From Solirhodobacter olei (lineage in GTDB: Bacteria; Pseudomonadota; Alphaproteobacteria; Rhodobacterales; Rhodobacteraceae), in assembly GCF_004010155.1 (NCBI RefSeq), contig NZ_RRYH01000003.1:1-64000 (forward strand): 64,000 nucleotides of DNA, written 5' to 3'. Positions 29,579 to 46,412 of this stretch are shown here, piece by piece; positions within the stretch are counted from its first letter, which is position 1, and every line of letters starts with the position of its first letter. A program made the position numbers and the translations under genes. Under the pieces are notes generated by a model. The model ran no database searches and was not told the origin of the DNA. It worked only from the letters and a program-made list of their open reading frames with translations.

Positions 29579-29621
29579 CCCCCGCCGCGACCCGCCGCTA
29601 TGGTCCGCCGGCGCCGCTCGG

Positions 29622-29663
29622 GCCCGCGTGGTGGAATGGTAGACACAGGGGACTTAAAATCCC
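29622..29663 (+). pseudogene. 5' half of split tRNA-Leu(UAA), left island junction
   Basis: The sequence starts with the acceptor strand GCCCGCG (29622-29628), then the D-arm GTGGAATGGTAGACAC, anticodon stem and loop CTTAAAA (anticodon TAA) and CCC. After 29663 it stops matching a tRNA. The missing variable arm, T-arm and acceptor complement (CGCGGGC plus ACCA) are at 46371-46412. Joining the halves gives a proper tRNA-Leu(UAA). The piece is therefore a disrupted chromosomal gene whose promoter is still upstream. Confidence 0.9.
29651..29663 (+). repeat. attL core GACTTAAAATCCC
   Basis: Thirteen bases shared exactly with 46358-46370; the flanking base differs on both sides (G versus T before, G versus T after). 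The core spans the 3' side of the anticodon stem and the whole loop. It marks the left crossover of the integrase-borne element. Confidence 0.88.
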
Positions 29664-29750
29664 GATGTGCCGACCGGGAAGCGCATTGTTGTCAGCGCGT
29701 TAGGGTTGTATCGAGTTTCCGCGGCCCGGATGAGGCCCGGCACAGAGATG

Positions 29751-29779
29751 TTGATGGGCTCCGCCCGGCCTGATAGAGG
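29751..29779 (+). promoter_or_regulatory. Candidate promoter of the island tRNA
   Basis: TTGATG (29751-29756) and TAGAGG (29774-29779) are 17 bp apart and end 9 bp before the mature tRNA 5' end. The match to sigma-70 is fair at -35 and weak at -10. Alternatively the tRNA is read from the old tRNA promoter upstream of 29622. Confidence 0.35.
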
Positions 29780-29788
29780 GCGAAGGCC

Positions 29789-29873
29789 GGCCCCTTGGCG
29801 GAATTGGTAGACGCAAGGCACTTAAAATGCCTGGCCGCAAGGCGTTCCGGTTCGACCCCGGAAGGGGCCACCA
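29789..29873 (+). tRNA. tRNA-Leu(UAA), complete, carried by the island
   Basis: An 85-nt class II tRNA. Acceptor strands GGCCCCT (29789-29795) and AGGGGCC (29863-29869) pair fully; discriminator A and encoded CCA follow to 29873. The D-arm has GGCGGAATTGGTAGACGC, the anticodon stem AGGCA/TGCCT encloses loop CTTAAAA (anticodon TAA), and a long variable arm and T-arm CCGG-TTCGACC-CCGG follow. It differs from the split chromosomal tRNA-Leu in acceptor and stems, so it is not a duplicate made by integration. It lies 125 bp inside the left att core and 3 bp from the mcrC-like stop. Confidence 0.95.
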
Positions 29874-29876
29874 AAC

Positions 29877-31229
29877 TTACGGGAGCAGCGCGCGCACCGC
29901 CGCGACGAACGCCCTCTCTTCATCCTCGATGGGTACTGCATCCAGGTCGATCATTCCGTTGAAGACCTTGAAGCCGCCAATTTCGCCGCAAAACTCTGCT
30001 TGGTCGCGCCCTTCGGGACGGCCGGCGTGCAATAGCATGATCCGATCGGCCGAGTATCTTATGCCATATACGACGACCTGATTGACGTCCCCACGATCGG
30101 GCATTCTCGGCGCCGGCTTGTACTTCGTGTCAATGACCAGCACCGGCGTCCCATCCCTCTCAATCACGATATCAGGTGTTACGGCGGGATTGTTCGTTCC
30201 GACGGCAAGTGGATCGTACAGCGCAAGCTTCGCTCCCCCGTCGCCTGCCCTGTTTCCGTCCTTGACCTCCAAAGATGGGTCGTCGGCCAGCCCCTCGGCG
30301 AGGACTCGGCGCACGTAGGCCTCGAAGACCAGAGCCATGTCTATTAGGATTGACGGCAGGATGGCGACGCCGCCAGCCTGGCGTATTGAGAGACCGAGGT
30401 CGTAGACCACCAGATGAGCGACGAGGAGCGCGTCAGCGTAGGCCTCGTGATGGTAGGGTAGCCGTGTGACATACTGGGCGATCGCCTGGGTCGTCAGCTC
30501 GGATGGGGAGGCGCGTCCGACCCCCTCTAACCTCGCAATGGCCGCGCGAAGCCTCTGCGTGCGCAACCTCTGTGTCGGCTCCGACAGGCCAAGGTAGCGG
30601 GCCAGAAGTTTCTCGAAAGCGTGGCGGAGCAGCCTGTTTGGGCCGAAGTCTGGCGTGCGACGGAAGGCCGTTGATACAGCGGTGGGCCGTCCGACCTTGG
30701 CGGACTTCCACTCGGTTTCGAACGGCATGATGCGACCGCTCGGCGTTGAGCCCGAGTTGACCACCCGGCCATAGCTTTGCAGCAGTCCGCCGGACCAGAT
30801 CCTGTCGAACGCACCGAGGAGCTGGTCCGCGAGCAGGTCAACGAGAGCCTCAGGCCGATCCTCGGAGTCACTGAATAGTCGAGAGTACTTGCGCAGGACT
30901 GCCGGCGTGTATCCGGCGGCCATCCCGACCAGCCGTTCCAGATTTCCCACCGGGACACGCGTCGATACCTCAAGAGCGTACGAGTCATTTAGTGGAATGT
31001 AGCCCACCCAGCCGGAGCACTGGATCGACGGTCGATTCCTCTGATAGGTTGGCCGGAACCTGTTGAGCACGTCCTCGTAAAGGTCGAGCGAGCCGTCATC
31101 GCGGACGAGTTCGGACGGAAGCGCAACGGTTTCGTGCTCGATCGCAGGGATGGCAATGCGGGCGATCCCGCCGGACGCCGCTAGGCCGCGGCCCCTGAAT
31201 GCGGCCTCCAGGGCGCCACTGCCTGCCAT
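29877..31229 (-). CDS. McrC-like nuclease subunit (LlaJI R2-type)
   Basis: A 450-residue McrC-family protein, the nuclease partner of a McrB GTPase. The N-terminal part has a beta-rich adaptor region (GWVGYIPLNDSYALEVSTRVPVGNLERLVGMAAGY, given in part). The C-terminal PD-(D/E)XK site is TPDIVIERDG...VLVIDTKYK, with D353 and D367-T-K369 as metal and catalytic residues. The gene begins 2 bp after the mcrB-like stop and ends next to the island tRNA. In LlaJI-type systems the equivalent pair cuts unmethylated target sites beside cognate methyltransferases. The methyltransferase upstream supports that reading over a pure type IV McrBC. Confidence 0.85.
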   Translation of the reverse strand: MAGSGALEAAFRGRGLAASGGIARIAIPAIEHETVALPSELVRDDGSLDLYEDVLNRFRPTYQRNRPSIQCSGWVGYIPLNDSYALEVSTRVPVGNLERLVGMAAGYTPAVLRKYSRLFSDSEDRPEALVDLLADQLLGAFDRIWSGGLLQSYGRVVNSGSTPSGRIMPFETEWKSAKVGRPTAVSTAFRRTPDFGPNRLLRHAFEKLLARYLGLSEPTQRLRTQRLRAAIARLEGVGRASPSELTTQAIAQYVTRLPYHHEAYADALLVAHLVVYDLGLSIRQAGGVAILPSILIDMALVFEAYVRRVLAEGLADDPSLEVKDGNRAGDGGAKLALYDPLAVGTNNPAVTPDIVIERDGTPVLVIDTKYKPAPRMPDRGDVNQVVVYGIRYSADRIMLLHAGRPEGRDQAEFCGEIGGFKVFNGMIDLDAVPIEDEERAFVAAVRALLP

Positions 31230-31231
31230 CG

Positions 31232-32254
31232 TCAGTTGCCTTCGGCGCTGACCGGCCCAAGTTCAGGCTCCGCGCTATCGGTCCCATCTGGTGGAATCGG
31301 GGCAACGTCGGCGGGAAACGACCGCGCCCACGACTTGCTGATCCTGTCTAGTAGGGCACTGTCAAGGCGGCACGCTTTCTTGAAGAAGGGCAGGAGCCTG
31401 TACTCCCAACAGCGACGGGCGCTGGCCTCATCCAGACAGGTGATGAAGTAGGCGTGGCCTAGGCGGACCATTTCGTCGCTCTCCCGCTGGACAGAGTCGA
31501 AGAAGGCAACCACCCTGTCGATCAAATCGGGCGCCGCGCCGCCCTCAATCAGGAGGTCGCGCAGCTTCGCGGCGCTGGGCGGCACGTCGATCTGGGCGAA
31601 CCGCCGTTCGAGCGCCACGTCCAACTCATCGACGCCCTTATCCCAGGGGTTCATTGTGGCAAGTACGATCAGGTTCTTCGGCACCGCCATCGTCCCGCCA
31701 GATGCCACGGTGAACCGTTGACCCCTCTTGTCCATCTCCAGGTATGTCAATGCCTCGCCGAAGACCCTTGCCACGTCGCATCGGCTAATCTCATCAATCA
31801 GCAGGACGTGCAGCACATCGGGCCGCTCGGCTGCGTCGTCACAGAGCAGGGCGAAAGTCTTCTTCTGTAGATGGAAACCCCCTCCATCGCGCGGCGCGAA
31901 ACCGAGCATGAAGTCCTCGTACTGGTAGGATGTGTGGAACTGCACGGTTCGGACTGCGTCCAGGTCGCCGGCGATCGCGCTGGCAAGTCGCTTCGCGTAC
32001 CAGCTCTTGCCCGTCCCAGGCGGTCCCGACAGGATCACGCCGGCGAAGCCCATGGCGAGGGCCGCACGGACCTCGATCAGCATCTCGTCGGTTTCCGGGA
32101 GTGGGTCAGTTTGGTCCTCCCGCTCGGCGTCGACGTCCGAAGCCGTCTCTCCGTCTTCGTCCAAAATCCGTTCAAGAGTGGCAGGCGGATGAATGTCCAG
32201 TCCGAGATCCTCCAAAGACATTGGTCGGACCTTGTCAGATGTCAGGCTATCCAT
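31232..32254 (-). CDS. McrB-like AAA+ GTPase subunit (LlaJI R1-type)
   Basis: A 340-residue AAA+ motor. Walker A GPPGTGKS is at residues 77-84, Walker B is VLLIDEISR, and the McrB-type signature NP-W-D is in LATMNPWDKGVDELDVALERRF. The start at 32254 follows AGGGGGG and overlaps the stop of the preceding 216-aa gene by 8 nt. Compared with E. coli McrB the protein lacks a long N-terminal DNA-recognition domain: only about 60 acidic residues precede the motor. DNA recognition must therefore come from another subunit. It should form a ring that drives the McrC-like nuclease. Confidence 0.88.
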   Translation of the reverse strand: MDSLTSDKVRPMSLEDLGLDIHPPATLERILDEDGETASDVDAEREDQTDPLPETDEMLIEVRAALAMGFAGVILSGPPGTGKSWYAKRLASAIAGDLDAVRTVQFHTSYQYEDFMLGFAPRDGGGFHLQKKTFALLCDDAAERPDVLHVLLIDEISRCDVARVFGEALTYLEMDKRGQRFTVASGGTMAVPKNLIVLATMNPWDKGVDELDVALERRFAQIDVPPSAAKLRDLLIEGGAAPDLIDRVVAFFDSVQRESDEMVRLGHAYFITCLDEASARRCWEYRLLPFFKKACRLDSALLDRISKSWARSFPADVAPIPPDGTDSAEPELGPVSAEGN

Positions 32255-32897
32255 CCGCTTGCCCCCCTTGAAGCATTTCCAGGTCTTCGGGCGTGAAGCT
32301 GTCCGCATCGTCGGCAAATAGGGTGTCGAACACCTTCCTCTCCTCGGGATCGGCCTCGCTCAACCCGAACTCGTAGCGAAACAGATCTATCACCCGTGAC
32401 ACTTCGCGGGCGTCTAGGCGGAATCCGTAGTCGCGGTAGAAGAAGGCGGCGAGGGCCCCGACGGGCACCTTCCCCTTCAAGAGAAACCGTCTGGCGAGCT
32501 TCGCGTGCTCGTCCTTCAGCCTATACGTTGCGCTCGCTCCCTCCCCCTCTACCTCGATGACCTCCGATAGTTTGCCACGCGCACGTATCGAACTCGCGCC
32601 ATACGACCCGGCGACATTTGGGTTGAAGAGCTCAAGGCCTCGGCTACCGCGTGAAGCAAAGGGGCGGACGTAGACGGATTGCTTGTTCTCGTCGGCGACG
32701 CTTAGGTACCTGTTGTGCAGGTCCCAAATTGCCTTGGATCTCACGGGCTCCCCCGGCTCTGCCGACTTCAACCCGCGCAGAATTGCCAGGTAGCCGGGGA
32801 AGTGCTCATGAATCTTGCAAGTCTCAAGCAAGCGGATGGAGCGAAGGACAGCATCCCTCGTGAAGACGTAAGTGCTCGGCTCACTTGGCTCCGCCAC
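32247..32897 (-). CDS. Unknown 216-aa protein in the methyltransferase/McrBC-like operon
   Basis: I do not recognise a named domain. A GTG start at 32897 overlaps the methyltransferase stop by 17 nt, and the stop overlaps the mcrB-like start by 8 nt. Visible features are an N-terminal helical section (DAVLRSIRLLETCKIHEHFP), a basic middle (FASRGSRGLELFNPNVAGSYGAS) and a C-terminal helical domain (FFYRDYGFRLDAREVSRVIDLFRYEFGL). The position suggests the missing DNA-binding or specificity partner of the short McrB-like motor. That is inference from context. Confidence 0.75.
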   Translation of the reverse strand: MAEPSEPSTYVFTRDAVLRSIRLLETCKIHEHFPGYLAILRGLKSAEPGEPVRSKAIWDLHNRYLSVADENKQSVYVRPFASRGSRGLELFNPNVAGSYGASSIRARGKLSEVIEVEGEGASATYRLKDEHAKLARRFLLKGKVPVGALAAFFYRDYGFRLDAREVSRVIDLFRYEFGLSEADPEERKVFDTLFADDADSFTPEDLEMLQGGQADG

Positions 32898-34008
32898 GCT
32901 TCGTAGACCTCATCGATTCGCTCTTCTGAGCGAGGTCTACACCAATGGCGCTTCTGCCGATATCCCTTGCGGCACGTAGGGTTGTGCCCGTGCCCATGAA
33001 CGGATCAAGGACGATTCCGGGGCGAAACGGCGCGTCGCACCCGCAGTCGGTCCATCCAACCGTCTCGCGCTTGGCAAAGGTGAACTCGCGGAAGTAACCC
33101 CCAAGCGCGGCCTTGGCCTCTGCTGCAAGCGCCTTCACCACAGCCGAGTTCCGGCCGGTTCCGGTCTGGACAAGCATGGCCTTGCCCGCGTCCGAGATTC
33201 CCGTAGCCTGCACTGCCGCGATGTGCTCCGGCGTCAGACCCTTCTCCGCTGCGAGTTCCATCGCCCGCTTTGCCTGCGGCCGGGAGGGGTCGAGGCGCGC
33301 AGTCCGCCGGACGATCCTTTCCCGGGGCTTGCCGCAGCAGGTGCATACCTCGACAGGGCATGCAAGCGTCAACACCCGGTCCACCAACTCGGTTGGGTAC
33401 GGAGCGAGATGCTTGCTCATGTCACGACGCAGCCCAATCTGCCAAACGTCGCTCGGCCCCGTTCCGTTACCGTATTTCTCGGCATAACCAAACTGGTCAT
33501 AATAGTAGCCGCGACGCTTCGGTGTGAAGTGGATGATGTATTCGTGGCGGCTCTTGAGCCGATCCTTGGCCGGGTCCGGCATGCCGGCGTCCTTCACCCA
33601 GACGATGCGATTGCGAACGGTCCAACCCGCCGCTTGGGCCGCGATCTCTAGGCGGCCGGGTGTGTTGGCGAGTGAGCCGTTGTGATAGGTGTCGCCGATG
33701 TTCATGAAGACCGAGCCCCACGGGGGCAGGATGGTCCGCCAGTTCTCCATGCACTCGATCATGGAGGCGACGTATTCGTCTGGGGTGGCTTCCTGCCCAA
33801 TCTGTCCGGCAACCCCGTAGTCGCGCTTGAGCCAATACGGAGGTGAAGTTACCACGATGTCGGCGGCGCCAGCACTCAGCGGAACCTCTCTGGCATCTCC
33901 GTGTAGCTTTCGGGTGAACGGCCCCTCGTGGACACGTGGTTTCTCATTGCAAGGATCTTTGGACAGGTCTGTTTTCGTGTCCGAGCTGAGCGGTGCAATT
34001 AAGTTCAT
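32881..34008 (-). CDS. DNA methyltransferase, N4-cytosine type
   Basis: A 375-residue amino-methyltransferase with circularly permuted (beta-class) motif order. Catalytic motif IV TSPPYW is at residues 54-59, typical of N4-cytosine enzymes, and motif I DPFMGTGTT (AdoMet site) is near 335-343. Between them is a target-recognition region with cysteine pairs (VCTCCGKPRERIVRR, DCGCD) that may bind zinc. The start MNLIAPLSSDTK at 34008 is chosen over an upstream extension rich in Arg/Ser. It is followed by the 216-aa, mcrB-like and mcrC-like genes with overlaps, so it protects host DNA from that nuclease. N6-adenine activity cannot be excluded. Confidence 0.88.
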   Translation of the reverse strand: MNLIAPLSSDTKTDLSKDPCNEKPRVHEGPFTRKLHGDAREVPLSAGAADIVVTSPPYWLKRDYGVAGQIGQEATPDEYVASMIECMENWRTILPPWGSVFMNIGDTYHNGSLANTPGRLEIAAQAAGWTVRNRIVWVKDAGMPDPAKDRLKSRHEYIIHFTPKRRGYYYDQFGYAEKYGNGTGPSDVWQIGLRRDMSKHLAPYPTELVDRVLTLACPVEVCTCCGKPRERIVRRTARLDPSRPQAKRAMELAAEKGLTPEHIAAVQATGISDAGKAMLVQTGTGRNSAVVKALAAEAKAALGGYFREFTFAKRETVGWTDCGCDAPFRPGIVLDPFMGTGTTLRAARDIGRSAIGVDLAQKSESMRSTKRGGAK

Positions 34009-34082
34009 TGTGGTGTCCGACCGTTCTGTTCGACGCCGCCTCGCAAGGGCATTGCTTGAGTTGTGCGCCAAAGTGATTCTCG

Positions 34083-34105
34083 AACACACTACCTAATAAT
34101 GTGTT
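34083..34105. promoter_or_regulatory. Inverted repeat upstream of the methyltransferase
   Basis: AACACA (34083-34088) and TGTGTT (34100-34105) flank an AT-rich 11-bp spacer, 75 bp upstream of the methyltransferase start and 18 bp after the XRE gene. It may be an operator for that XRE (control) protein, giving timed expression of the system. Confidence 0.4.
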
Positions 34106-34122
34106 GCTCGTCGAGTGAAAAT

Positions 34123-34404
34123 CTACATCTTGGGGGCTTCGCCCATTCGTGTGGGCGGCCTCCCGCCCGCCTCTACCTTGAGTTTGTCGATCATCGCGGA
34201 AGCGTCGATCCCAATGGCCCGGCAGAGGTGCAGGAACTCCACCACGTCCAGCCGCCGCTCGTACCCCTCGACCTTGGCCACGAACGACTGCGGCCGCCCG
34301 AGCCGGTCGGCGACCTGCTGCTGGGTCAGGCCCGCACCCTGGCGCGCTGACCTTAGGGCGTCGATGAGCCGCCGATACTCCTCGTCGTAAATGCTCTTCG
34401 ACAA
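34123..34404 (-). CDS. XRE-family regulator (possible restriction-modification control protein)
   Basis: A 93-residue Cro/CI-type protein. The HTH is SARQGAGLTQQQVADRLGRPQSFVAKVEGYERRLDVVEFLHLCRAI (given in part), residues 18-64. It is slightly longer than typical C-proteins (about 80-95 residues) and ends in a basic tail. The gene is upstream of the methyltransferase on the same strand and divergent from the PD-(D/E)XK gene, with a palindrome in each flanking gap. A role in delayed nuclease expression, as in classical R-M loci, is inferred. Confidence 0.82.
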   Translation of the reverse strand: MSKSIYDEEYRRLIDALRSARQGAGLTQQQVADRLGRPQSFVAKVEGYERRLDVVEFLHLCRAIGIDASAMIDKLKVEAGGRPPTRMGEAPKM

Positions 34405-34455
34405 CCGCGCGTTCCGTTGACCGGGGACGCGGAGAGCGGTAGTCCCGCAATCGGA

Positions 34456-34474
34456 TTATCCCAAAATAGGATAA
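34456..34474. promoter_or_regulatory. Operator-like palindrome between XRE and PD-(D/E)XK genes
   Basis: TTATCC (34456-34461) and GGATAA (34469-34474) flank the 7-bp spacer CAAAATA. It lies 10 bp before the rightward gene start and 52 bp before the leftward XRE start, in an 79-bp divergent gap. Binding by the XRE protein would control both directions. Confidence 0.5.
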
Positions 34475-34483
34475 GTCGGCGGC

Positions 34484-34969
34484 ATGGCGGAGGGGCTTAC
34501 CTCCACGCAGAGGGGCAGGATAGCCGAGCTTCACGTCGCGACGGCACTTATGGCGCAGTCCGGCGGGAGGCTGTCTCCGTTCGCGCCGATCTCCGACGAC
34601 CACGGCGTCGACCTCGTCGTGCTGGACAAGGAGAGCGGCCGTGCGCTGCCGGTGCAGGTGAAGTCGTGGTTCCTTTCGCTCGACCGGCCTGTGCGGAACG
34701 TCCAGTTCGATGTGCAGCGGTCGACCTTCGCCGAGGGCGGCCGCGGCGCCGTCGTCTGCGTGGTCATGGACCCGATGACGCTCACTATGATCGTCGGTTG
34801 GGTGTTTCCTATGCGTGACATCCCCACAATCGGAACGGAGCGCGCCGCGAAATTTGCCCTCGTGCCGAGCCTCCGCGTCACCACACGGGACAAATACGTT
34901 ATCTACCGTCACACGACGCTTTCCGCCCTGACGGCCGGCATAGATAACTTGCTTCGATCGAACCCCTGA
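34484..34969 (+). CDS. PD-(D/E)XK-like small nuclease or restriction-like protein
   Basis: A 161-residue protein with the compact core of the PD-(D/E)XK superfamily: E15 in the first helix, D43 in SDDHGVDLVVLD, and Q58-V-K60 in ALPVQVKSW. This E-D-QxK pattern occurs in Holliday-junction-resolvase-like and small defence-associated nucleases. A second half with beta strands (AVVCVVMD, MIVGWVFPM) completes the fold. It is divergent from the XRE gene and 75 bp before the Schlafen-like gene on the same strand. It may act alone as a DNA-sensing nuclease. Its target is unknown. Confidence 0.7.
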   Translation: MAEGLTSTQRGRIAELHVATALMAQSGGRLSPFAPISDDHGVDLVVLDKESGRALPVQVKSWFLSLDRPVRNVQFDVQRSTFAEGGRGAVVCVVMDPMTLTMIVGWVFPMRDIPTIGTERAAKFALVPSLRVTTRDKYVIYRHTTLSALTAGIDNLLRSNP

Positions 34970-35044
34970 CAGTTCACCCGGCAGAGAAAATCCGCTAACC
35001 ATTCAGTCCGACCCTATCGACCCATTGCTGCAGGAGCCGACGTT

Positions 35045-36217
35045 ATGCTGCTCGGGAAGAACTTTGACGAGATTGATAGTGCCACAATCCAGGCGCTCGT
35101 AGGCGCTGGGGCAACTGAATCGGTTCATCTGGAGTTTAAGCGCGACCCCTACGGTTCGGCGGACAGCGACAAGAAGGAATTTCTCAAGGACGTTTCTGCA
35201 TTCGCGAATGCGCTTGGAGGCCACCTGCTAATAGGTGTCGATGAGGTGGATGGAGCCGCGTCGGCGGTCACGCCAATCGTCGGCATTGACGTAGACAAGG
35301 AGCTGCTTCGTCTTGAGAGCGTGGTGCGAACCGGCATTGAGCCGGCCATCGTCGGCGTTCGGATGAAACGGATCCAAGCCGGTGTCGGCGATGTGATCGT
35401 TATCCAGATCCCGCGCAGCTATAATCCTCCGCATCGGATCATCTTCAAGGGCAGCAATCGGTACCATTCGCGTAGCTCTTCAGGGACCTACGAATTGTCG
35501 CTTGAAGAACTGCGGACGCTGTTCGGGCAATTCCGAAGTGTTGAGGAGCGCGCCAAGACCTTTATGAGAGAGCGGCTACTTCGTGTTCAGGCGAACGACG
35601 GAGCCATGCCGCTTCCGGTTGAAGTCGGAGCCATGATCATGCATCTCGTTCCGCTGCCGGACTTTGGGTCGGGAAGACGCCATGAGCTTTCCGAGCTACG
35701 TCAGCAGAGCATGGCGTTCGCTCCCCTCGGTGCGAGTGGGTATACCCCCCGTGTCAACCTGGATGGATTCCTTCTCTACCGCGGCGGCCCAGTGTGCCGC
35801 GGCTACACCCAAGTCTTCCGAGATGGGAGCGTCGAGGCGACGAGCGTCAGTATGATTGCGGAGATGGATGGTCGAAGGCTGCTGCCGTCCGTCGCAGTGC
35901 CCGAAAGGATTATGCAGGCGCTCCGATCCTATATGACGGGCCTTAGGGCAATTGATGCTTCATCGCCTATCCTACTTCAGGTGTCATTTCTCGCGATGAA
36001 TGGGGTCGGGCTGGGCATAGATCCAATGAGAGTACTGAACCCACCGCCTACGTATGGACGGGAGGAGCTGCACTTGCCCGCGTCGATAATTTCCGAATAT
36101 CGGAATGATGAAGACTACCAGGACGTGGTCGCCGAACAGATGGATTTCCTTTGGAACGTGTTCGACTTCGAGCGCTGCTTCTATTTTAACAGCGAGGGCA
36201 AGTGGGCTGGCCCATAG
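35045..36217 (+). CDS. Schlafen/AlbA_2-domain protein
   Basis: A 390-residue protein with an N-terminal Schlafen AlbA_2 domain: ESVHLEFKRDPYG, DKKEFLKDVSAFANALGGHLLIGVDE, GVRMKRIQAGVGDVIVIQIPRSYNPPHRI (in part), and YHSRSSSGTYELSLEELR. The conserved E-F-K and the Asn/Gly-rich turn are intact, consistent with nucleotide or nucleic-acid handling. The C-terminal 230 residues are unfamiliar and may sense or execute. AGGAG precedes ATG at 35045. AlbA_2 proteins recur in defence islands, and Schlafen relatives cleave tRNA in eukaryotes; activity here is inference. It converges on the FRG gene with a 29-bp gap. Confidence 0.82.
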   Translation: MLLGKNFDEIDSATIQALVGAGATESVHLEFKRDPYGSADSDKKEFLKDVSAFANALGGHLLIGVDEVDGAASAVTPIVGIDVDKELLRLESVVRTGIEPAIVGVRMKRIQAGVGDVIVIQIPRSYNPPHRIIFKGSNRYHSRSSSGTYELSLEELRTLFGQFRSVEERAKTFMRERLLRVQANDGAMPLPVEVGAMIMHLVPLPDFGSGRRHELSELRQQSMAFAPLGASGYTPRVNLDGFLLYRGGPVCRGYTQVFRDGSVEATSVSMIAEMDGRRLLPSVAVPERIMQALRSYMTGLRAIDASSPILLQVSFLAMNGVGLGIDPMRVLNPPPTYGREELHLPASIISEYRNDEDYQDVVAEQMDFLWNVFDFERCFYFNSEGKWAGP

Positions 36218-36246
36218 CGAACAAACCAACAAGGTCTCTCCAAGGT

Positions 36247-36999
36247 TCAAGCAGAGAGAACGTCTTTCAGGCTTTGTAGCCAGTCCGACTCCAGCGCAGA
36301 AAGGGCGATTCCCTCAAAATCTGGAAAGAGCTTGCGTGCATTGACGCCTACAGAGCTAAGGTATGCAAACGCCGTCCGGGCCTCAGTAACCGGCAAAACA
36401 AACCTAATCAACAAGGGTTGACCTTGCGGAGGCGCAGCTCTGGCATAATCTTCAAGCGTCTCGTGGAGTCCGGTGAGGTGAGTAAAGTATCCAAGTTGCG
36501 CATTTGCGCGAAGATTTCCCTTCGATCGAGCTTCAAGAACGCTCAGACCAAGTTGATGATGGATTAACTTGCTGGAACGCTGAAGGGCCCAAATTACAAC
36601 ATTTCCGGAGCGTTGATTGCTCAAAGCGGCGCGGTTAAAAGCAAAGTAAGCTGCTACGAAAGGATTTGAAGACCAGTCTAGAAGCCGGGTCGGTAATCCA
36701 TAGTGTTGAGCGACTGATATAGTCAAGTCGTCAGACGCTTCCTCATCAACCTCTTCTCTGTAAAGCTTCGCAAAATTGTCCTTGACTCTTTGGTACTTTC
36801 TCACGCGATCATCAATCGGAATGTCAGCAAACCTGCGGTCAAATGATGAGCGCAACTCGTAGTTCGCGTCTCCTTGGCCTCGGAAAAGAAAACCCCCTGG
36901 CAAAATCACTCCATCTAGAAAGAGATCGAATCCGAAGTTGGCAACAAATTTGTGCCAACTCCTGAAGCGAATAGTGCGGATGTTTCCGGTATCGGTCAT
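36247..36999 (-). CDS. FRG-domain protein
   Basis: A 250-residue protein with an FRG domain. The name motif is visible in FLFRGQGDANYELRSSFDRR (about 37-56), and the second conserved block AQHYGLPTRLLDWSSNPFVAAYFAF is in full (about 95-120). FRG proteins occur widely next to defence genes, and the fold is thought to be related to ADP-ribosyl-type or toxin-like effectors; activity is unproven. ATG at 36999 overlaps the stop of the ATPase gene (ATGA), so the two are co-translated. The DNA is clearly AT-richer than the host chromosome. Confidence 0.83.
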   Translation of the reverse strand: MTDTGNIRTIRFRSWHKFVANFGFDLFLDGVILPGGFLFRGQGDANYELRSSFDRRFADIPIDDRVRKYQRVKDNFAKLYREEVDEEASDDLTISVAQHYGLPTRLLDWSSNPFVAAYFAFNRAALSNQRSGNVVIWALQRSSKLIHHQLGLSVLEARSKGNLRANAQLGYFTHLTGLHETLEDYARAAPPQGQPLLIRFVLPVTEARTAFAYLSSVGVNARKLFPDFEGIALSALESDWLQSLKDVLSA

Positions 37000-39188: not shown

Positions 39189-39407
39189 TCAGTCGGTCGG
39201 ACCCGGCCTCAGCTGCGCCTGGAGGCGCGCGGCGAGGTCGGCGGCGACGAGCGTCTGCCGGCCGCGCTCCGTCTGGCACACGGCGTGGTAGGCGTCGTAG
39301 TAGTCCTCGCCCCGCTCGTCGGCGCGGGCCTTGGCCATGGCGTCGAGCTCGGCCTCGAACCGCTGACGGAGGTCCGCGGCCTTCTGGTACTGCGCGTCGG
39401 CTGCCAT
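39189..39407 (-). CDS. Small hypothetical protein of the island core
   Basis: A 72-residue, mostly helical, charged protein (MAADAQYQKAADLRQRFEAE, then RGEDYYDAYHAVCQTERGRQT). It begins 1 bp after the stop of the coiled-coil gene, so both are co-transcribed with the TerS-like gene. No family is recognised. It has no signal or TM segment. Small acidic/basic helical proteins are common next to replication or packaging modules of phages and satellites. Confidence 0.6.
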   Translation of the reverse strand: MAADAQYQKAADLRQRFEAELDAMAKARADERGEDYYDAYHAVCQTERGRQTLVAADLAARLQAQLRPGPTD

Positions 39408-39408
39408 C

Positions 39409-39951: not shown

Positions 39952-39986
39952 CGCGGTGCTCCTCCTTTGCTGCAGGCCGTTCTTGC

Positions 39987-40301
39987 TCAGCTTGCGCCGC
40001 TTGCCGCGCTCCGGGGAACCGTCGTTCGCGGCCCGGACCCGGGTCCCAGATCGGGCGGCGCTCCCGCTCCCGCGCCGCTCAGCGCACGGTCGCCGGCGAC
40101 GGCGCCCCGCCTCGCTTCCAGCCGTCGGGCGGCCGTGGCGTCCCAGGCGGCGCGGAACCCGGGGTCGCGGGCGCGGTGCCAGTACATGGTGTGGCGCGCC
40201 ACGCCCAGCTCGGCGCAGGCCGAGGCGACCGTCAGTCCGACGGCCAGGAGGTCCAGGAACCTCGCCTTGTGCTCAGGGAGGATCAGCCTCGGCGCTGCCA
40301 T
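39987..40301 (-). CDS. Short terminase-small-subunit-like HTH protein
   Basis: A 104-residue protein starting MAAPRLILPEHKARFLDLLA. The segment GLTVASACAELGVARHTMYWHRARDPGFRAAWDATAARRLEARR (in part) matches the N-terminal HTH of phage TerS-like proteins: a recognition helix, then DPxFxxAW and an alanine/arginine helix. It lacks the oligomerisation domain of full TerS (the rest is Ala/Gly/Pro-rich). In satellites a TerS variant redirects packaging; here it may bind DNA only. It heads the HTH/coiled-coil/72-aa operon beside the origin-like repeats. Confidence 0.55.
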   Translation of the reverse strand: MAAPRLILPEHKARFLDLLAVGLTVASACAELGVARHTMYWHRARDPGFRAAWDATAARRLEARRGAVAGDRALSGAGAGAPPDLGPGSGPRTTVPRSAASGAS

Positions 40302-40583
40302 TCTCTTGCGTCCCCGTCGGGCCCCGCGCCGGGCCGCGGATCTCCCTACCCGCAACGCCATGCCGCGGAAGGGGAATCCGGCCCGATTCAGGGGCTAGTG
40401 ATCCGCCGTCATCAGCGGACGCGATCCAGGCTGCGCAGTCCGAGCCGCGGCGCGAGCCATCGTTGCGCTCGGCAACTATCTCGTGCGCGCCCGCGCGCAA
40501 GGCCAGACCAGGACGGTCTGAAGTTGCGCACCCTGTGACCGATCTGGATGCTCCAGTCTGGCAGGAACGTGGCTCCGTATGGC

Positions 40584-40750
40584 TTGTAGGGCTACGCTGC
40601 TATATTCTGCCGTTGATGCACCCATTTGGGCCAGCCGTCGCAGACAACTCCGCTGCGCAATGTCATTTTCAGACCTACATGCTCTGCAGCCCTACAAGGC
40701 AACCGAAACAAGGCTTTGTGCGTGTAGGGCTTCGTGCAGCAAAGCCCTAC
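40584..40750. repeat. GTAGGGCT repeat array, origin-like, beside the primase gene
   Basis: The octamer GTAGGGCT (or its complement AGCCCTAC) appears four times in the 484-bp gene-free gap 40302-40785: at about 40586, 40689, 40724 and 40743, alternating in orientation. The first two extend to TTGTAGGGCT/AGCCCTACAA. The last two form a perfect hairpin with 9-bp arms, GTAGGGCTT (40724-40732) and AAGCCCTAC (40742-40750). The array lies 36 bp from the end of the prim-pol/VapE gene. Satellites often place their origin beside the primase gene, so iteron-like function is likely. There is no T-run to support a terminator. Confidence 0.55.
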
Positions 40751-40785
40751 TTCGCCTACGTTAAGAGACCGGATCTTCGCCGCAT

Positions 40786-43050
40786 CTAGGTTGCGGCATC
40801 GGAGGTGGGGGAGATGTAGCCTGCTCGGACGACCTCGCCGATCCTGACGGACTTCCGGTATCTCCAGCCGAGCGCCTCCATGACCCGGCGTAGGCGCATT
40901 GTGTGAGATCGGTTCTGCCTGCCTCCGTCGAGTTCGAGGGCTCGGAGCAGCGTGCCGGTGTGGATGCGGTCCGGCTCGTGCGGCCTCTCGGCGGGCACGG
41001 CCACCAGCCGCCCGTCCACGATCTCCTCGATCGTCTCCGTTGTGCCGAGGGCCCAGTCGGCGTAGTCGGCGGCGAGCCTGTCCAGGATGGCGCGCACCTC
41101 GTCGGCCCACGGATCGTCCACAGTCTCGGCTGCCTGCTGCTCCGCGGCGCGCGGCCAGAGTGCCTCGGGAAGGACGTGCGCCTCGCCCCGATGGAACCTG
41201 GCTTCCGCCTCGGCCCAGAGCTGGTCCCTGTTGGCGGCAATCCACGCGAGGTCGACGCGCGTCCCGGGGCGCATCTCAAGGGGCCAGAAGCGCCGGCCGC
41301 CAGTCGGGTCGCTGAGGTAGCCGCCCTCGTTGACCGTCCCGGCGAAGACCGCCCGGCGGGGATGGTCATCGATGGTTCGACCGTAGGGCACGCGGTATCG
41401 GTCCGTCGCCCGGGACATGAAGGCCTTCAGGACGTCCATGTCGCTGGCCCGCAGGCCGGCCAGCTCGGCGAACTCGTGGACCCAGATTCCGTCCAGCTGC
41501 ATCGGCGCGTCCTTGTTGCGCAGGTCGCCGAGCTCGGAATCACTGAACCACTCGGTGGAGAACAGGTCACGCAGGCCGGACGACTTGTTTGAGCCCTGCG
41601 GCCCCTTGATGACGGGCATTGTGTCGAGCTTGCATCCCGGGCTTCTCTGGCGGGCGACGGCGCCGACCATGAAGCAGCGCGATACGGCCCTGGTGTACTC
41701 GTCGTCGGCGCACATGAACCCATCGGTGAAGAGGCGCTCCACCCTCTCGGTTCCATCCCACTCCAGGCGGTCCAGGTAGTCGTGGATCGGATTGAACTTA
41801 TGTGCGTAGGCAAGCGTCATGGCAGCCTCTAGGACGTTCTCCTTCGACGGCTGGTAGTCGTTACCCTGGTGGATCTCCATTAGGAGCAGTCGGGTCATCC
41901 GCGCAGTTTGATCGTTGAGTTCCCTGCCGTAGCTCACGTCCCAAGGTAGCTCGCCGGAGAACACGACGCGCTGCTTGAGCTCGTCAAAACGCGGAGTGAG
42001 GCCGGAGGCGTGGACCGCTCTCAGCGCGTTCACGGGCGTGTCGGGCGCAACCCGAGTCTTGTTGTGTATAGATAGTCCGCCCACGTGGATCGGCTGTTCT
42101 TCGCTGGTCGCAACGTTGGTGGTGACCCGCAGAGCTTCATCGCCGTCGATAACGTCGAAGTCCTCCTGAGGCGTCGGGCGCGGCACGAGGTCCTCGCGGC
42201 CGGCCTCAACGAGCAGACGGTAGAGAGTGCGCGCCGTCACCATGCCCTCGCGGCCGTCCAGGCGCAGGCTATCCCAGTGCTGCCCGATGATCTCGGCGTC
42301 GCCAGCGTAGGCCGGGTCCCCGATCGACCAGGTGATGAACTCCTCGCGACCCGCGCTTGCGGTGCCGTGATGGCTGGCCATCATGACGCCCAGCCAGGCC
42401 GAATAATCCCTGAAGTCCTCCACGTCGAGGGCGTCGAGCATTGAGGCCAGCTGCCCCGCGTCGATCTCACCTGGCTCGGCATTGCCCGCCCCGGTCGTTT
42501 CGTCGCGCGCGATGGCCACTAGGAGCCTCTCGGGCGCCCTCGCCACGTCGGCGAATGGCGGGGTCAGGAAGTCCCACTCATAGGTCCGACCGGTGACGGG
42601 ATGGACCGAGCCCGCGGCAACGACGTAGCCGCCGACCGACTTGAAGTCGATGCCCTCGTAGCCGTCCAGCTTCTGACGGATCGTGACATCGGCCGGCTTG
42701 AGCATGTAGACGTGCAGCCCGCCCGATCCCGTATTCACGGTCGGGTAGGCGTCGGGGTCGATCCCTGCATCCTTGCAGAGTCTCTCCCAGGGGTTGTCGC
42801 CTTCGATGAAGTTGCGCGGGTCGACGTCCACCACGAGCTGCCCGGCCCGCAGGCGCACCCCGGCGTTTCCGCCGCCGGTGACGTGACGTACCACGTCCGC
42901 GCGGGCGTAGCGCTTATCCATCCACCCGCGTTCTCGCGGGACTTTGGTCAGGGGCTTCAGCGGGATCAGATCCCAACGCCCCTCAGGATATCTCTCGATC
43001 TCATCTGGCTTTGATGGCGTGCTCGACGCCCGCGAGTTGCTATGGTTCAT
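40786..43050 (-). CDS. Primase-polymerase / VapE-type helicase replication protein
   Basis: A 754-residue protein. The N-terminal bifunctional prim-pol domain (about 20-170) has LVVDVDP with D75 and D77, TGSGGLHVY with H113, and IDFKSVGGYVVAAGS with D135: the catalytic triad is intact. A PriCT-like linker (about 200-285) follows. The VapE helicase domain (about 400-640) has WDGTERV, Walker A GPQGSNKS (483-490), VHEFAELAG and GRRFWPLEM. It should initiate autonomous replication of the island. ATG at 43050 has GGAGGG about 10 bases upstream. Similar proteins replicate P4-like and PICI-type satellites. Confidence 0.85.
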   Translation of the reverse strand: MNHSNSRASSTPSKPDEIERYPEGRWDLIPLKPLTKVPRERGWMDKRYARADVVRHVTGGGNAGVRLRAGQLVVDVDPRNFIEGDNPWERLCKDAGIDPDAYPTVNTGSGGLHVYMLKPADVTIRQKLDGYEGIDFKSVGGYVVAAGSVHPVTGRTYEWDFLTPPFADVARAPERLLVAIARDETTGAGNAEPGEIDAGQLASMLDALDVEDFRDYSAWLGVMMASHHGTASAGREEFITWSIGDPAYAGDAEIIGQHWDSLRLDGREGMVTARTLYRLLVEAGREDLVPRPTPQEDFDVIDGDEALRVTTNVATSEEQPIHVGGLSIHNKTRVAPDTPVNALRAVHASGLTPRFDELKQRVVFSGELPWDVSYGRELNDQTARMTRLLLMEIHQGNDYQPSKENVLEAAMTLAYAHKFNPIHDYLDRLEWDGTERVERLFTDGFMCADDEYTRAVSRCFMVGAVARQRSPGCKLDTMPVIKGPQGSNKSSGLRDLFSTEWFSDSELGDLRNKDAPMQLDGIWVHEFAELAGLRASDMDVLKAFMSRATDRYRVPYGRTIDDHPRRAVFAGTVNEGGYLSDPTGGRRFWPLEMRPGTRVDLAWIAANRDQLWAEAEARFHRGEAHVLPEALWPRAAEQQAAETVDDPWADEVRAILDRLAADYADWALGTTETIEEIVDGRLVAVPAERPHEPDRIHTGTLLRALELDGGRQNRSHTMRLRRVMEALGWRYRKSVRIGEVVRAGYISPTSDAAT

Positions 43051-43133
43051 CTGCTTGCGGCCCTCCGGGGCCGATCTCATTCGGGACTCCAACGGCGCTG
43101 TTCGCTAACTCGTTCGGTCCCGGGTTAAGGTCT

Positions 43134-43166
43134 GGCCGCCGCGCTCCTTTGCATTGCGCGGCGGCC
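43134..43166. promoter_or_regulatory. GC hairpin between AlpA-type and primase genes
   Basis: Perfect 11-bp arms, GGCCGCCGCGC (43134-43144) and GCGCGGCGGCC (43156-43166), flank an 11-base AT-richer loop, 84 bp upstream of the primase start. It could be an operator or an attenuator. There is no T-tract on either strand. Confidence 0.4.
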
Positions 43167-43246
43167 GCTCACCCGAATCACTTTACGCCCCCGTCAAGCG
43201 CAAATCGTCCATCATTACGGTGCTGGAAGCCGGGCAGCCGGGCCGC

Positions 43247-43486
43247 TCAGGCGAGCGGCTCGCGGCGCAGCCCGGCCATGAATGCCCGCAGGTCATCCAC
43301 CGAGTAGAGGCACTTCCTGCCCACCCGGTGGACGGCGGGGCCGCCGCCTCGGAGCCGCCAGAGTTCGAGCTGCTGACGGCTCAGGCCAAGGAAGCCGGCC
43401 GCCTGGTTGGTGTCGAGGAACTCGCGGCGCGGCGCCGCCAACGTCCGCTCGATGCGCTCGAGTCGTTCCATGATTTCCTGCTGCAT
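43247..43486 (-). CDS. AlpA/excisionase-type HTH protein
   Basis: A 79-residue MerR-like HTH_17 protein: FLDTNQAAGFLGLSRQQLELWRLRGGGP is the HTH, then VHRVGRKCLYSVDDLRAFMAGL completes the wing. A short N-terminal helix (QQEIMERLERIERTL) probably dimerises. Such proteins act as excisionases or as activators of satellite integrase or replication genes. It sits directly upstream of the primase gene on the same strand. Confidence 0.8.
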   Translation of the reverse strand: MQQEIMERLERIERTLAAPRREFLDTNQAAGFLGLSRQQLELWRLRGGGPAVHRVGRKCLYSVDDLRAFMAGLRREPLA

Positions 43487-43613
43487 CGTCGTGGCTCGCG
43501 AATGAGGTAGGTCGGGTTGATCGTGCGCGAACCACGAGTGTCAGTAACCCGTTACTTCCTGCTCGGCCCTATGCATCGGTAGCGCACTGCCTTTGCAGAA
43601 GAGTGAGTGTAGC

Positions 43614-44960
43614 CTAACCAACATGTACCCGAACGTCATTCCCAAGCGACCGCAACGATTTCGACGTTCTTCCATTGCGAGGCGGGAAGGCGTCTGGGAG
43701 GGCCCACCCCACCAATTCGCCAAGTGCACTAATCCCGAGGCCTTCAAGTTTCCATCTCGGATCGCTGAATCCCTGCCACAGTCGCTCTGGGAGTTTATCA
43801 TTTGGCCCACCATAGAGAATGTGCGCGAGCAACTGTCTGACGTCAGTTCCTCCCTCCGAACGTTCTCTCCAAATTCGGGCGGATAGGGCATCGACCTTCT
43901 GAGGAATCGTATAAGGGATTTTGCTTTCTGGTAACCCAACCGATTTGTTAGCTACGCGACGGGCGTAATCCTTGATGGCATGCACGCCCATACAAATCAT
44001 ACGAAATCCGTTTTCGTCCAAGGTCTTCAGATTTTCCTTAGATAGCGCTGATCTTAATTTGGGCGCTGTAATATTTAGCATCTCATCTTCCTCGGATGGA
44101 GCGCTACGAAGGTTGCGCCACCAAGCAACAGCTTCCCTTAGTGCAGCATCAGGATCGTTCTTATTCTTTTCGTAGAACTCTTCGTACCGAGCTCTCCTAC
44201 CATCCATGGTGCGCTGATAGTAGTGTGCATGAAGAAACTGATCGGCGAGGGCCCCAGCTGGTGCCTCTTTCTTGATCCAAGAAGGACGGTTTTCTGGCCG
44301 ACTCACGAGGGTGCCGATGTCGCGAAGCTGTTGAAGAGTCGAGTGCCACTCCGCCAAAAACGCTTGGCGCCTTCGATCGCTGGCTGCTTTTCGTTGTGTT
44401 TGTATGAGACCAGGCCACGTGTTGAAGCTTGCGCTCTTCCAGAACTCATCCTCGGGTGGTTTCCGCTTACCCAACTCCTTCTCTCGATCTTTCATGATCG
44501 TCAATAATTCTTCGGTAAGTGGAGTGGCGTGGGCGTGCAAAGTTTCAAATAAATCTAGAACGTCATTTGCGATTTCATCAGTAATTTCATTTTCTTCAAA
44601 GAAACAGCCTGATTCAATATTACTGTACCAGGCGCTGCCGGTCAAATTTGCTGAGCCTACGTAAAGACCGTGCCCTCGCCACCATATCACTTTAGCGTGA
44701 TGGTGTTGGACGAGCCAGCACTGGAACTTGGCGGAACGCTGTTCCAAGAACTGCCTCAGGATATTCCAGGTGACGGCGACGCCATCATCTAGTCGACCAT
44801 AGTATCTCAAAGGGATTGAGTAATCGAGGCACCATTTGAAGAGAAGTGACATGTCGGTTGCATATGCGACTGCAGCGAGAACCTCATCTGTCTCTTTGGC
44901 GGCTCTATCTCTAATATCCCTCAAATAGTGCCCATTAATCCCGCCCATGACCAAGTGCAT
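43614..44960 (-). CDS. PLD-like (HKD-type) protein, possible defence nuclease
   Basis: A 448-residue protein. The N-terminal PLD-like domain contains one HxK motif (H88-A-K90 in QHHHAKVIWW) followed by VGSANLTGSAW (N105), the arrangement of phospholipase D superfamily nucleases that dimerise to make an active site. The remaining 320 residues are helical and unfamiliar (LQQLRDIGTLVSRPENRPSW, HAIKDYARRVANKSVG). AT content is clearly higher than in flanking integrase and AlpA genes. PLD-fold nucleases occur as effectors of defence systems. It stands alone between the satellite regulator and integrase, a usual cargo position. Confidence 0.72.
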   Translation of the reverse strand: MHLVMGGINGHYLRDIRDRAAKETDEVLAAVAYATDMSLLFKWCLDYSIPLRYYGRLDDGVAVTWNILRQFLEQRSAKFQCWLVQHHHAKVIWWRGHGLYVGSANLTGSAWYSNIESGCFFEENEITDEIANDVLDLFETLHAHATPLTEELLTIMKDREKELGKRKPPEDEFWKSASFNTWPGLIQTQRKAASDRRRQAFLAEWHSTLQQLRDIGTLVSRPENRPSWIKKEAPAGALADQFLHAHYYQRTMDGRRARYEEFYEKNKNDPDAALREAVAWWRNLRSAPSEEDEMLNITAPKLRSALSKENLKTLDENGFRMICMGVHAIKDYARRVANKSVGLPESKIPYTIPQKVDALSARIWRERSEGGTDVRQLLAHILYGGPNDKLPERLWQGFSDPRWKLEGLGISALGELVGWALPDAFPPRNGRTSKSLRSLGNDVRVHVG

Positions 44961-45075
44961 TAAAGACCCCTTACTCTTCTCGAGGGTGAAATTGCTGCTA
45001 CCGATGTGGTTACATGGTTTTGGTGGCCGAGCTACAGATTTTTAGTTGCCAAGGTGTCTTTCTGGGAGAGGTTGT

Positions 45076-46215
45076 TCATTTGCCTCGATAGCTGGCGATC
45101 AGCCCCGCGACCCTCTCCGAGGCGTCCCGCATAGGCCCGAGAAGGTTAGCCCGCGTCACGTAGTTCCACGTCACCCCTGCCGGTCGGTGGTTCATCAGGA
45201 CCATCGCCATCTGCAGGTCCACTCCCGCCTCCAGCGCCATCGTCCGATAGGTGTGGCGCATCCCGTGCGGTGCGTAGGGGAACGACGCGATGCGGCGCTG
45301 CTGTTCGATGTGTCCGCTCTTCGCGGAGGGCGAGGGGAAGACGAACGGGCTTTCCAGTGGCCGTGTCAGCTCCCGCACCTCCTCCAGCTCCTGCCGGAGC
45401 AGTCGGGGGAGGGGGAGCCGGAACGCCTTGGCCTCGCCGCCCTTCGGGTTCGGCACGGCGAGCAGGCCGTCGGCGTCGAGGTGCTCCCAACGCATCGAGC
45501 GGGCGTCGTGAGAGCGTAGGCCGGTGAGCAGCATGACGAGCCACGCGCCCCGGCGAACCCGGTCCTCCATCGCGTCGAGCCTCCGCCACAGCAGGGGCAT
45601 CTCCTCCGGCGGCACCGCCCAGTCGCGGGGCGTCTCGCGGTTCATCCTCACCCCGCGCGAGACGGGGTTGGGCGGCAGGTCGTGAGTGCGGGCCACGTCG
45701 TTCAGCACTAGCTTCAGCAGCCGCATGGCTCCGTTCGCCCCGTAGGGCCCGCACCTCCGCGTCAGCCTCTCGTGGAGCGTCCGCACGGCCTCACGGTCGA
45801 TCCGGTCGGCGGGTAGCCTGGCCACGGACTTGAGCGGGCCTGTGATCTTCTCGCGGTACCACTTGTGGGTGGCCGGGCTCAGGTCGGGGCGTCCGGCGAG
45901 GTAGCGCTCGAGGGCCTCGGCCACGGTTGGCACGGAGACCTTCGGCGTCCTCGGGTCGGTGCCGCGACGCAGCGCGAGGCGCAGCTCCGTCGAGCGCTCT
46001 CGGGCTGACCTGAGGCTCAGGTCCGTCGTCCTGCCGAGCGCGATCGAGACGTACCGGTCGGTGCCGTCGTTGATCCTGCCCACGAACTTGTAGGAGCAGC
46101 CCGTCTTGCCCACCACGACCCTGAGGCCCGAGACCTCCTCGTCGTAGAGCTGGGTGCCGGGCGCGTGCTGCTCTCGGGCCCTCGCGACGAGGGCCTGCGT
46201 CAGCCTTGTTGCCAT
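45076..46215 (-). CDS. int: Tyrosine recombinase (integrase)
   Basis: A 379-residue phage-type integrase. An N-terminal arm-binding DUF4102-like region (LYDEEVSGLRVVVGKTG) and a SAM-like core-binding domain (about 95-180) precede the catalytic domain. Catalytic residues are R234 (LLTGLRSHDARS), K258 (PNPKGGE), H317 and R320 (HGMRHTYR), H343 (MNHR) and Y352 (WNYVTR). All are intact, so it should be active. It lies 143 bp inside the right att core and reads inward, as usual for tRNA-inserted islands. Confidence 0.93.
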   Translation of the reverse strand: MATRLTQALVARAREQHAPGTQLYDEEVSGLRVVVGKTGCSYKFVGRINDGTDRYVSIALGRTTDLSLRSARERSTELRLALRRGTDPRTPKVSVPTVAEALERYLAGRPDLSPATHKWYREKITGPLKSVARLPADRIDREAVRTLHERLTRRCGPYGANGAMRLLKLVLNDVARTHDLPPNPVSRGVRMNRETPRDWAVPPEEMPLLWRRLDAMEDRVRRGAWLVMLLTGLRSHDARSMRWEHLDADGLLAVPNPKGGEAKAFRLPLPRLLRQELEEVRELTRPLESPFVFPSPSAKSGHIEQQRRIASFPYAPHGMRHTYRTMALEAGVDLQMAMVLMNHRPAGVTWNYVTRANLLGPMRDASERVAGLIASYRGK

Positions 46216-46357
46216 GTCCTGATCCTCCTGTGGGCCCGGTCTGAGGCCCGGTGTCAGAACCGATCCGATAGGGTCGGGTAGGAGGATTGTGTCGTGGTTT
46301 CAGTTGGTTGCGAACCATCATGGTGCGGCATAGGGCGCCATGAGACGCGCTTGGACT

Positions 46358-46370
46358 GACTTAAAATCCC
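46358..46370 (+). repeat. attR core GACTTAAAATCCC
   Basis: Exact copy of 29651-29663. To its right the tRNA-Leu continues; to its left is island DNA with only vague resemblance to a tRNA D-arm, so the element did not restore the tRNA at this end. The 142 bp between core and integrase include a palindrome ACCATCATGGT (46314-46324) that could be an arm-type or regulatory site. Confidence 0.88.
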
Positions 46371-46412
46371 TAGCCGCATGGCGTGCCGGTTCAAGTCCGG
46401 CCGCGGGCACCA
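46358..46412 (+). pseudogene. 3' half of split tRNA-Leu(UAA), right island junction
   Basis: From the anticodon loop this runs through a variable arm (TAGCCGCATGGC), T-arm GCCGG-TTCAAGT-CCGGC, acceptor CGCGGGC (46402-46408), discriminator A and CCA to 46412. The acceptor pairs perfectly with GCCCGCG at 29622-29628. No 5' half or promoter is present here, so it cannot make a tRNA in the integrated state. Confidence 0.9.

Follow-up and report, generated by a model that had tools for sequence, protein, structure and literature searches.

A small island that splits a host tRNA-Leu(UAA) gene in its anticodon loop and carries a complete tRNA-Leu(UAA) of another type

We analysed a stretch of 64,000 nucleotides from Solirhodobacter olei (GCF_004010155.1, contig NZ_RRYH01000003.1, positions 1 to 64,000; hereafter the window), in which an island of 16.7 kb lies inside a leucine tRNA gene with the anticodon UAA, tRNA-Leu(UAA). 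Our results make it very probable that the island inserted through a 13-bp core in the anticodon loop into the only tRNA-Leu(UAA) gene of its host, destroyed this gene, and keeps the cell alive with its own copy, which comes from another lineage. In the mechanism that we propose, a tyrosine-integrase island would enter through the anticodon-loop core and break the sole host gene. The complete foreign tRNA-Leu(UAA), which lies just inside the left attachment site (attL) in the orientation of the broken gene and follows the captured host promoter, would then take over, and precise excision would restore the host gene.

The core GACTTAAAATCCC occurs in the window only within the two orphaned halves of the host gene (coordinates of all features in Table 1), starting at 29651 and at 46358 on the plus strand. 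The 3' half ends at 46412 and includes CCA. When joined, the halves form a canonical 84-nt tRNA-Leu(UAA) according to ARAGORN. The same program reported no tRNA at either island junction, meaning that the host gene is rebuilt neither at attL nor at the right attachment site (attR). The DNA between the halves has a tyrosine integrase gene at its right end and, near its left end, a complete tRNA-Leu(UAA) that starts 125 bp past the orphaned 5' half on the same strand. A covariance model trained on 19 tRNA-Leu(UAA) genes, from which the window was left out, gave 87.7 bits to this island copy, 43.1 bits to the 5' half and 37.6 bits to the 3' half. These findings bear out an earlier reading of the window from its letters (the original prediction), which had described a tRNA-Leu(UAA) gene truly split at the anticodon loop around a 13-bp core, with neither end restored and a complete but different tRNA-Leu(UAA) just inside the left end.

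The island copy is the sole intact tRNA-Leu(UAA) that we found in the draft host assembly (4,778,327 bases in 122 contigs, completeness 100). The covariance model matched 20 places across the assembly, and only five of them exceeded 65 bits, namely the tRNA-Leu genes for CAA, GAG, TAG and CAG and the island UAA gene; the best match below these five reached 48.9 bits. The pattern ACTTAAAATNCCTNG, with at most one mismatch, occurred twice, both times inside the window. A longer pattern with at most three mismatches occurred at five places, of which two lie in the window and one is the CAA gene; the remaining two we judged from their letters not to be tRNA-like. No second UAA gene was present among the 39 tRNAs that Rfam reported for the assembly, all of which were typed for their anticodon with ARAGORN. 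We did not retain Rfam as the only census, since it misses the window tRNA as well as those of two of 12 other sources, and used the patterns and our own model instead.

The site without the island is preserved in another genome of the same genus (G006). There, an intact tRNA-Leu(UAA) of the GCCCGCG type, 96% identical to the joined host gene, is flanked in the same order by DNA that matches window positions 25410-28849 (left side) and 47390-49136 and beyond (right side), and the GGCCCCT-type tRNA of the island has no match in this genome at E<=1e-12. The original prediction had named two results that would speak against it, a second intact copy of the host-type gene and a GGCCCCT-type tRNA at the island-free site; neither was found, by patterns and covariance model in the draft assembly or in the relative, and its overall interpretation is supported. 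At the same threshold, the island tRNA matched 12 of 390 genomes of the order, the source genome counted in, the nearest matches being 91% (G409) and 84% (G407) identical, and 96% over positions 1-48 only (G438). Since the 31.8 kb around the G409 gene contain neither a second tRNA half nor a related integrase, another genus of the family seems to have the GGCCCCT-type tRNA as an ordinary gene.

The layout is not confined to the window. A search of genome contigs with the window integrase returned eight loci, seven of them with a close integrase (63-70% identity), and all seven adjoin the 3' half of a tRNA-Leu(UAA) gene cut at the anticodon loop. Six also have the 5' half, with a complete tRNA-Leu(UAA) behind it: those of Litoreibacter, Devosia ureilytica, Shinella sp. 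H4-D48, Allorhizobium undicola, Rhizobium sp. Root1212 and an Inquilinus metagenome-assembled genome (MAG), the last two with their ends on separate contigs that presumably pair. The seventh, in Erythrobacter sp. NAP1, is conventional, with the tRNA restored at attL. Within the family of the window, 57 of 394 genomes (source included) gave integrase matches at E<=1e-20, mostly distant, and at least five of the 394 have the replacement layout. These are the source genome (G000), G128 (integrase 75% identical to that of the window), G468 (an element on two contigs, whose integrase is 58% identical over residues 1-103 and truncated where a contig stops), G479 (only its left end, with the tRNA about 0.2 kb from the contig end) and G659 (a decayed element with an incomplete integrase). 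A pattern of half plus whole tRNA with a gap of 120-150 recovered three of the 394 (G000, G468 and G479); with a gap of 95-125 a similar pattern recovered none of 385 genomes drawn from the class, a result that concerns only the short-gap form in this sample, as the window itself falls outside this range.

Nine elements could be measured, namely those of the window, G128, G468, Litoreibacter, Devosia, Shinella, Rhizobium, Allorhizobium and the Inquilinus MAG. In all of them, the element tRNA follows the end of ACTTAAAAT by 87-137 nt on the same strand, and the cores, of 10-13 bp, have ACTTAAAATC in common. With G479 and G659 included, all 11 element tRNAs lie close to attL and have the orientation of the broken gene. 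Seven tRNA-Leu elements, among them that of Erythrobacter, have both ends on one contig; they measure 13.5-16.8 kb and share the integrase, the regulator and the primase domain, while the cargo of the window is little matched there. Because the layout recurs in other genomes, chance or mis-assembly is a very unlikely origin for it.

Replacing and restoring members are mixed in a tree of the integrases (19 rows), where Erythrobacter stands beside Litoreibacter, itself a partial row, with 100/96 support. L095 (Litoreibacter, past an internal stop) and L100 entered this tree as parts; L109 (G659), L117 (G468) and the viral contig L180 described below were left out, the last for having no match to the query. 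Good support was obtained for only four of 16 inner branches and the deeper forks are weak, so that no firm count of switches between the two modes follows from the tree. A change of target also occurs within the integrase clade: in G684 (L178) and G342 (L177), whose integrases are 52-53% identical to that of the window, the element adjoins a protein-coding gene, which we take to resemble a gene-transfer-agent tail gene. A further relative, in G148, has 44% identity. For a partial one (H6), which lies on a plasmid of Rhizobium gallicum, the 16.6 kb examined contain no tRNA. The G475 element, which we had expected to replace a tRNA-Asn gene, proved to restore this gene in the conventional way; it measures only about 3.4 kb and has an integrase 64% identical to that of the window. 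Separately, the integrase frame of Litoreibacter (L095, 10001-11125) has an internal stop and its element tRNA is intact.

Three contig ends fall on the same core in other assemblies. In G038, the end of contig C4 (15487; L090) and the start of contig C21 (L091) both coincide with the anticodon-loop core where a tRNA-Leu(UAA) is split, and an element that is unassembled or mixed (inserted and excised) may account for them; the one further weak match checked is a tRNA-Leu(TAG). In G023, contig C48 (positions 1-40; L093) starts at the core of a tRNA-Leu(UAA) 5' half.

Integration in the anticodon loop parts the two strands of the acceptor stem. When the host 5' half is combined with the element 3' half, 2-4 of the 7 acceptor positions pair in six of the nine elements (window, Devosia, Shinella, Allorhizobium, Rhizobium and Inquilinus MAG), and all 7 pair in the other three (G128, Litoreibacter and G468). 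Judged from these pairings, carrying a 3' half would probably not suffice in the six mismatched elements and a whole tRNA would work anywhere, which is a possible reason for carrying the whole gene: it would free the element from matching the acceptor stem of the host and allow insertion in any tRNA-Leu(UAA) with the loop. In the three matching elements, a tRNA of the same lineage was possibly acquired locally. The replacing and restoring relatives provide a natural series for testing this idea.

Several points weigh against the replacement of the sole host gene by the island copy. The Rfam model RF00005 did not report the island tRNA-Leu(UAA) in the window. We take this silence as a filter effect, since over 12 other sources RF00005 missed two more tRNA-Leu(UAA) genes, L075 and the Devosia copy (L165), the latter although it is very like a sequence that the model did find. 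The list of 39 Rfam tRNAs lacks tRNA-Tyr, tRNA-Ile(GAT) and tRNA-Ala(TGC), which are expected in a living cell, so either the list or the 122-contig assembly is incomplete, and a further tRNA-Leu(UAA) copy may lie in an assembly gap. As a control of the census, a guessed tRNA-Tyr pattern found no match in the assembly, where the pattern or the assembly may be at fault. In our judgement, the support that the whole-genome model search lends to a sole copy is roughly offset by the missing tRNAs. Moreover, the elements share ancestry and are not independent trials, and G479 has no close integrase, its best match (27% identity, E 3.6e-9) being on another contig. The matching argument leaves G128, Litoreibacter and G468, in each of which host and element tRNA have the same acceptor type, without explanation. 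Lastly, we infer rather than observe the expression of the island tRNA, its essentiality, the lethality of anything but clean excision and the restoration of the host gene upon excision.

Other explanations of the split were considered. In a draft genome of 122 contigs, an unrelated stretch might have been joined into the tRNA gene by the assembly, and this is extremely improbable given that the same layout is present in other genera, including a complete chromosome record (Shinella sp. H4-D48). As the two halves are intact and share a strand, one could imagine a tRNA still arising from them, through trans-splicing of separate transcripts or across the 16.7-kb insertion. We know of no trans-splicing of tRNA halves in bacteria, and the insertion with its integrase, its attachment-site-like ends, the empty site of the relative and the intact copy supplied leave this idea a negligible probability. 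A more substantial objection, which we nevertheless consider quite unlikely, is that the host needs no UUA-reading tRNA, much as bldA is dispensable in Streptomyces. The split would then be tolerated, and the island tRNA would be cargo mainly serving the UUA-richer genes of the island. UUA is indeed very rare in the host, and the tRNA could for this reason be dispensable: it makes up 26 of 114,886 codons (0.23 per 1000) in 298 heuristically called open reading frames (ORFs), 24 of which carry it, against 11 of 4916 codons in the island genes, although the host ORF filter favours GC-rich third positions and thus undercounts UUA. However, der, whose product is a ribosome-assembly GTPase essential in other bacteria, has a UUA codon at residue 275 of 492, within the GTPase match. 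We searched 20 of the 24 ORFs in NCBIfam and checked the codon position in five; in cca, rsfS, mtgA and pip the codon falls at residues 2-48, where it may precede the true start, and we therefore rely on der only. Furthermore, an intact element tRNA is kept at one place in 11 elements, even where the integrase is interrupted by a stop (Litoreibacter) or incomplete (G659). An essential role of the island tRNA is likely.

How the island tRNA would be expressed is less settled. We lean towards read-through from the captured host tRNA promoter, with which the same strand and attL-proximal place of the tRNA in 11 of 11 elements agree. The opposing view, that the tRNA has its own promoter in the spacer and is independent of the captured one, appears somewhat doubtful to us but has a real chance of being correct. 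It is encouraged by the tRNA of the mycobacteriophage Fionnbharth, for which a 136-bp upstream fragment is described as a strong promoter in the pertinent section of its report (Guerrero-Bustamante & Hatfull 2024, PMC10865867), and is at odds with the G128 element, whose tRNA begins about 9 nt past a pair of GGCCCG-type motifs and leaves little room for a promoter. This motif pair was seen by eye in nine aligned spacers, with a similar form near the start of the integrase gene; the motifs look like arm-type integrase sites. A scan of 29450-29900 for the sigma-70 consensus detected no promoter, whether in the spacer or ahead of the host half. Because it was also blank at the host tRNA promoter, its silence in the spacer carries little weight and the scan is uninformative, so that an own promoter may exist, a further point against the proposed mechanism. 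The sole terminator-like site in the same range is on the minus strand (29679-29660). If read-through applies, the swap could be gated by integration: a promoterless element tRNA would be expressed only once inserted behind the captured host promoter, and the integrated element, then the sole UUA decoder, would penalise any loss except precise excision and enjoy a broad host range. We put forward this gated swap only tentatively, at a little short of an even chance; if true, a satellite or defence island would gain a broad host range without acceptor-stem matching.

The principle of a tRNA swap by insertion is already known, and the idea is not unprecedented. tRNA-dependent lysogeny has been described and proved for mycobacteriophages (PMC10865867). 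The sections of that report on Fionnbharth, LeBron and Gaia describe the combination that we found for the window island and its host gene, that is, insertion by a tyrosine integrase at a bacterial attachment site (attB) overlapping a host tRNA gene, a short common core (13 bp here), and no functional tRNA rebuilt at attL or attR. Core lengths are 8-17 bp in its Table 2 of actinobacteriophages and 10-13 bp in the present elements, and in both groups related integrases switch between restoring and replacing. For these phages there is experimental proof, and the tRNA of Fionnbharth, according to the same sections, overlaps gene 37 and is served by a promoter of its own. Unlike these phages, the present family consists of alphaproteobacterial islands without recognised virion genes, has its tRNA-Leu(UAA) 87-137 nt inside attL and is described here from sequence.

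Closer in taxonomy are phage-related inserts of Sinorhizobium meliloti, likewise in the Alphaproteobacteria, in which an inactivated tRNA gene is replaced by an insert-borne isoacceptor gene resembling those of unrelated alphaproteobacteria (PMC11476347, PMC12429752). These replacements differ in being tied to prophages like Mesorhizobium phage vB_MloP_Lo5R7ANS (PMC12429752). The passages concerned do not name a replacement of tRNA-Leu(UAA); the phiLM21-like prophages that they place in this gene (frequency 0.16) restore it. The tDNA islands of Islander, a common class (2083 islands), share the tyrosine integrase and the anticodon-centred crossover but, as the relevant passages describe them, restore the target gene at one end (PMC4383910); in the window island no such restoration was found. 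The Islander search looks for a restored gene plus a displaced fragment (PMC4383910), and the swap layout would escape methods that seek a restored tRNA gene.

Phages may use the same site and strategy. The integrase query had no match among viral contigs (IMG/VR), and a pattern search of them returned L180, with the core and then a whole tRNA-Leu(UAA), and L181, with a 5' half and then a whole one; only L180 has an integrase-like ORF, distantly similar to the window integrase. The same search with one other gap range returned no viral contig. Other candidates were rejected, L206, L207 and L209 for having two complete tRNA-Leu(UAA) genes each and L208 for being cut at its end.

What is apparently new is the family of satellite-like, defence-carrying islands with tRNA-Leu(UAA) as the target and a fixed attL-proximal place for the tRNA behind the captured host promoter. 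The literature that we searched, with subscription journals mostly outside its coverage, held no tRNA-Leu(UAA)-replacing island family of this kind. With this family, tRNA-dependent integration reaches beyond phages, to small islands that carry defence genes, have no recognised virion genes and occur in several alphaproteobacterial genera. The family also suggests that the only isoacceptor gene of a bacterium can be both mobile and foreign.

Judged by its predicted genes, the element appears to be a satellite or defence island. P4-like satellites and phage-inducible islands are about 15 kb in size and carry an integrase, an AlpA-like regulator, a Prim-Pol/VapE primase and defence cargo. The window island resembles them in all these respects and in one weak small-terminase-like protein; its core of integrase, AlpA and primase is accompanied by small size and by no recognised virion genes in the proteins searched. 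Unlike in P4-like satellites, no helper, packaging or capsid-remodelling genes are shown for it. Among 10 of the 16 named island proteins, PHROGs recognised no virion protein except the weak small-terminase match; for the other six, Pfam gave enzyme or defence-type domains in five and no match in orf161. Against 50,697 phage records the integrase gave five matches, with identities of up to 25.7%. PHROGs, Pfam and the phage records thus did not identify the island as a temperate phage.

Table 1. Features of the island and of the split host gene in the window
Feature	Position	Strand	Evidence
Orphaned 5' half of host tRNA-Leu(UAA) (attL side)	29622-29663	+	100% match to 5' part of joined tRNA; intact counterpart in G006
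Core copy at attL, GACTTAAAATCCC: anticodon loop and adjoining stem	29651-29663	+	Two copies in the window (29651, 46358)
Spacer of 125 bp holding two GGCCCG-type motifs (CGGCCCGGATGAGGCCCGG) that may be arm-type integrase sites	29664-29788	+	By eye
Complete element-borne tRNA-Leu(UAA), GGCCCCT type, CCA encoded	29789-29873	+	ARAGORN; acceptor stem 7/7
McrC-like subunit	29877-31229	-	Pfam McrBC PF10117 2.5e-22
AAA ATPase, putative McrB-like partner	31232-32317	-	AAA_5 3.6e-17; McrB role inferred from adjoining McrC
N6/N4 DNA methyltransferase (type II-like)	32881-34089	-	Domain and defence-system searches
orf161	34484-34969		No Pfam match
Schlafen AlbA_2 domain protein	35045-36217	+	Pfam; PADLOC gave no match
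FRG-domain protein, candidate defence gene (PADLOC PDC-S15)	36247-36999	-	Pfam, PADLOC
Small helix-turn-helix protein, weak small-terminase match	39987-40361	-	PHROG 4044 5.8e-07
Prim-Pol / PriCT-2 / VapE-like replication primase-helicase	40786-43092	-	Pfam, PHROGs; relatives in other elements
HTH_17, AlpA/excisionase-like regulator	43247-43486	-	Pfam, PHROGs; relatives in other elements
PLD-like domain protein (cargo)	43614-44960	-	PLDc_2 1.7e-07; PHROG 28026 1.2e-202; partial DrmC matches
Tyrosine integrase with arm-binding domain	45076-46215	-	PF00589 3.3e-09, PF13356 1.2e-07
Orphaned 3' half of host tRNA-Leu(UAA) with core copy (attR)	46358-46412	+	100% match to 3' part of joined tRNA

The PLD-like protein matches over its full length a phage family of unknown function (PHROG 28026). 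The elements of Devosia (L165) and Rhizobium (L168) have an McrBC-like pair near the element tRNA, 29-45% identical to the pair of the window. Outside the island, the minus strand at window positions 58175-58648 gave five below-threshold matches to the Brucella small RNA CI153, mostly 71 bp apart, and this segment looks like a repeat array with stem-loops.

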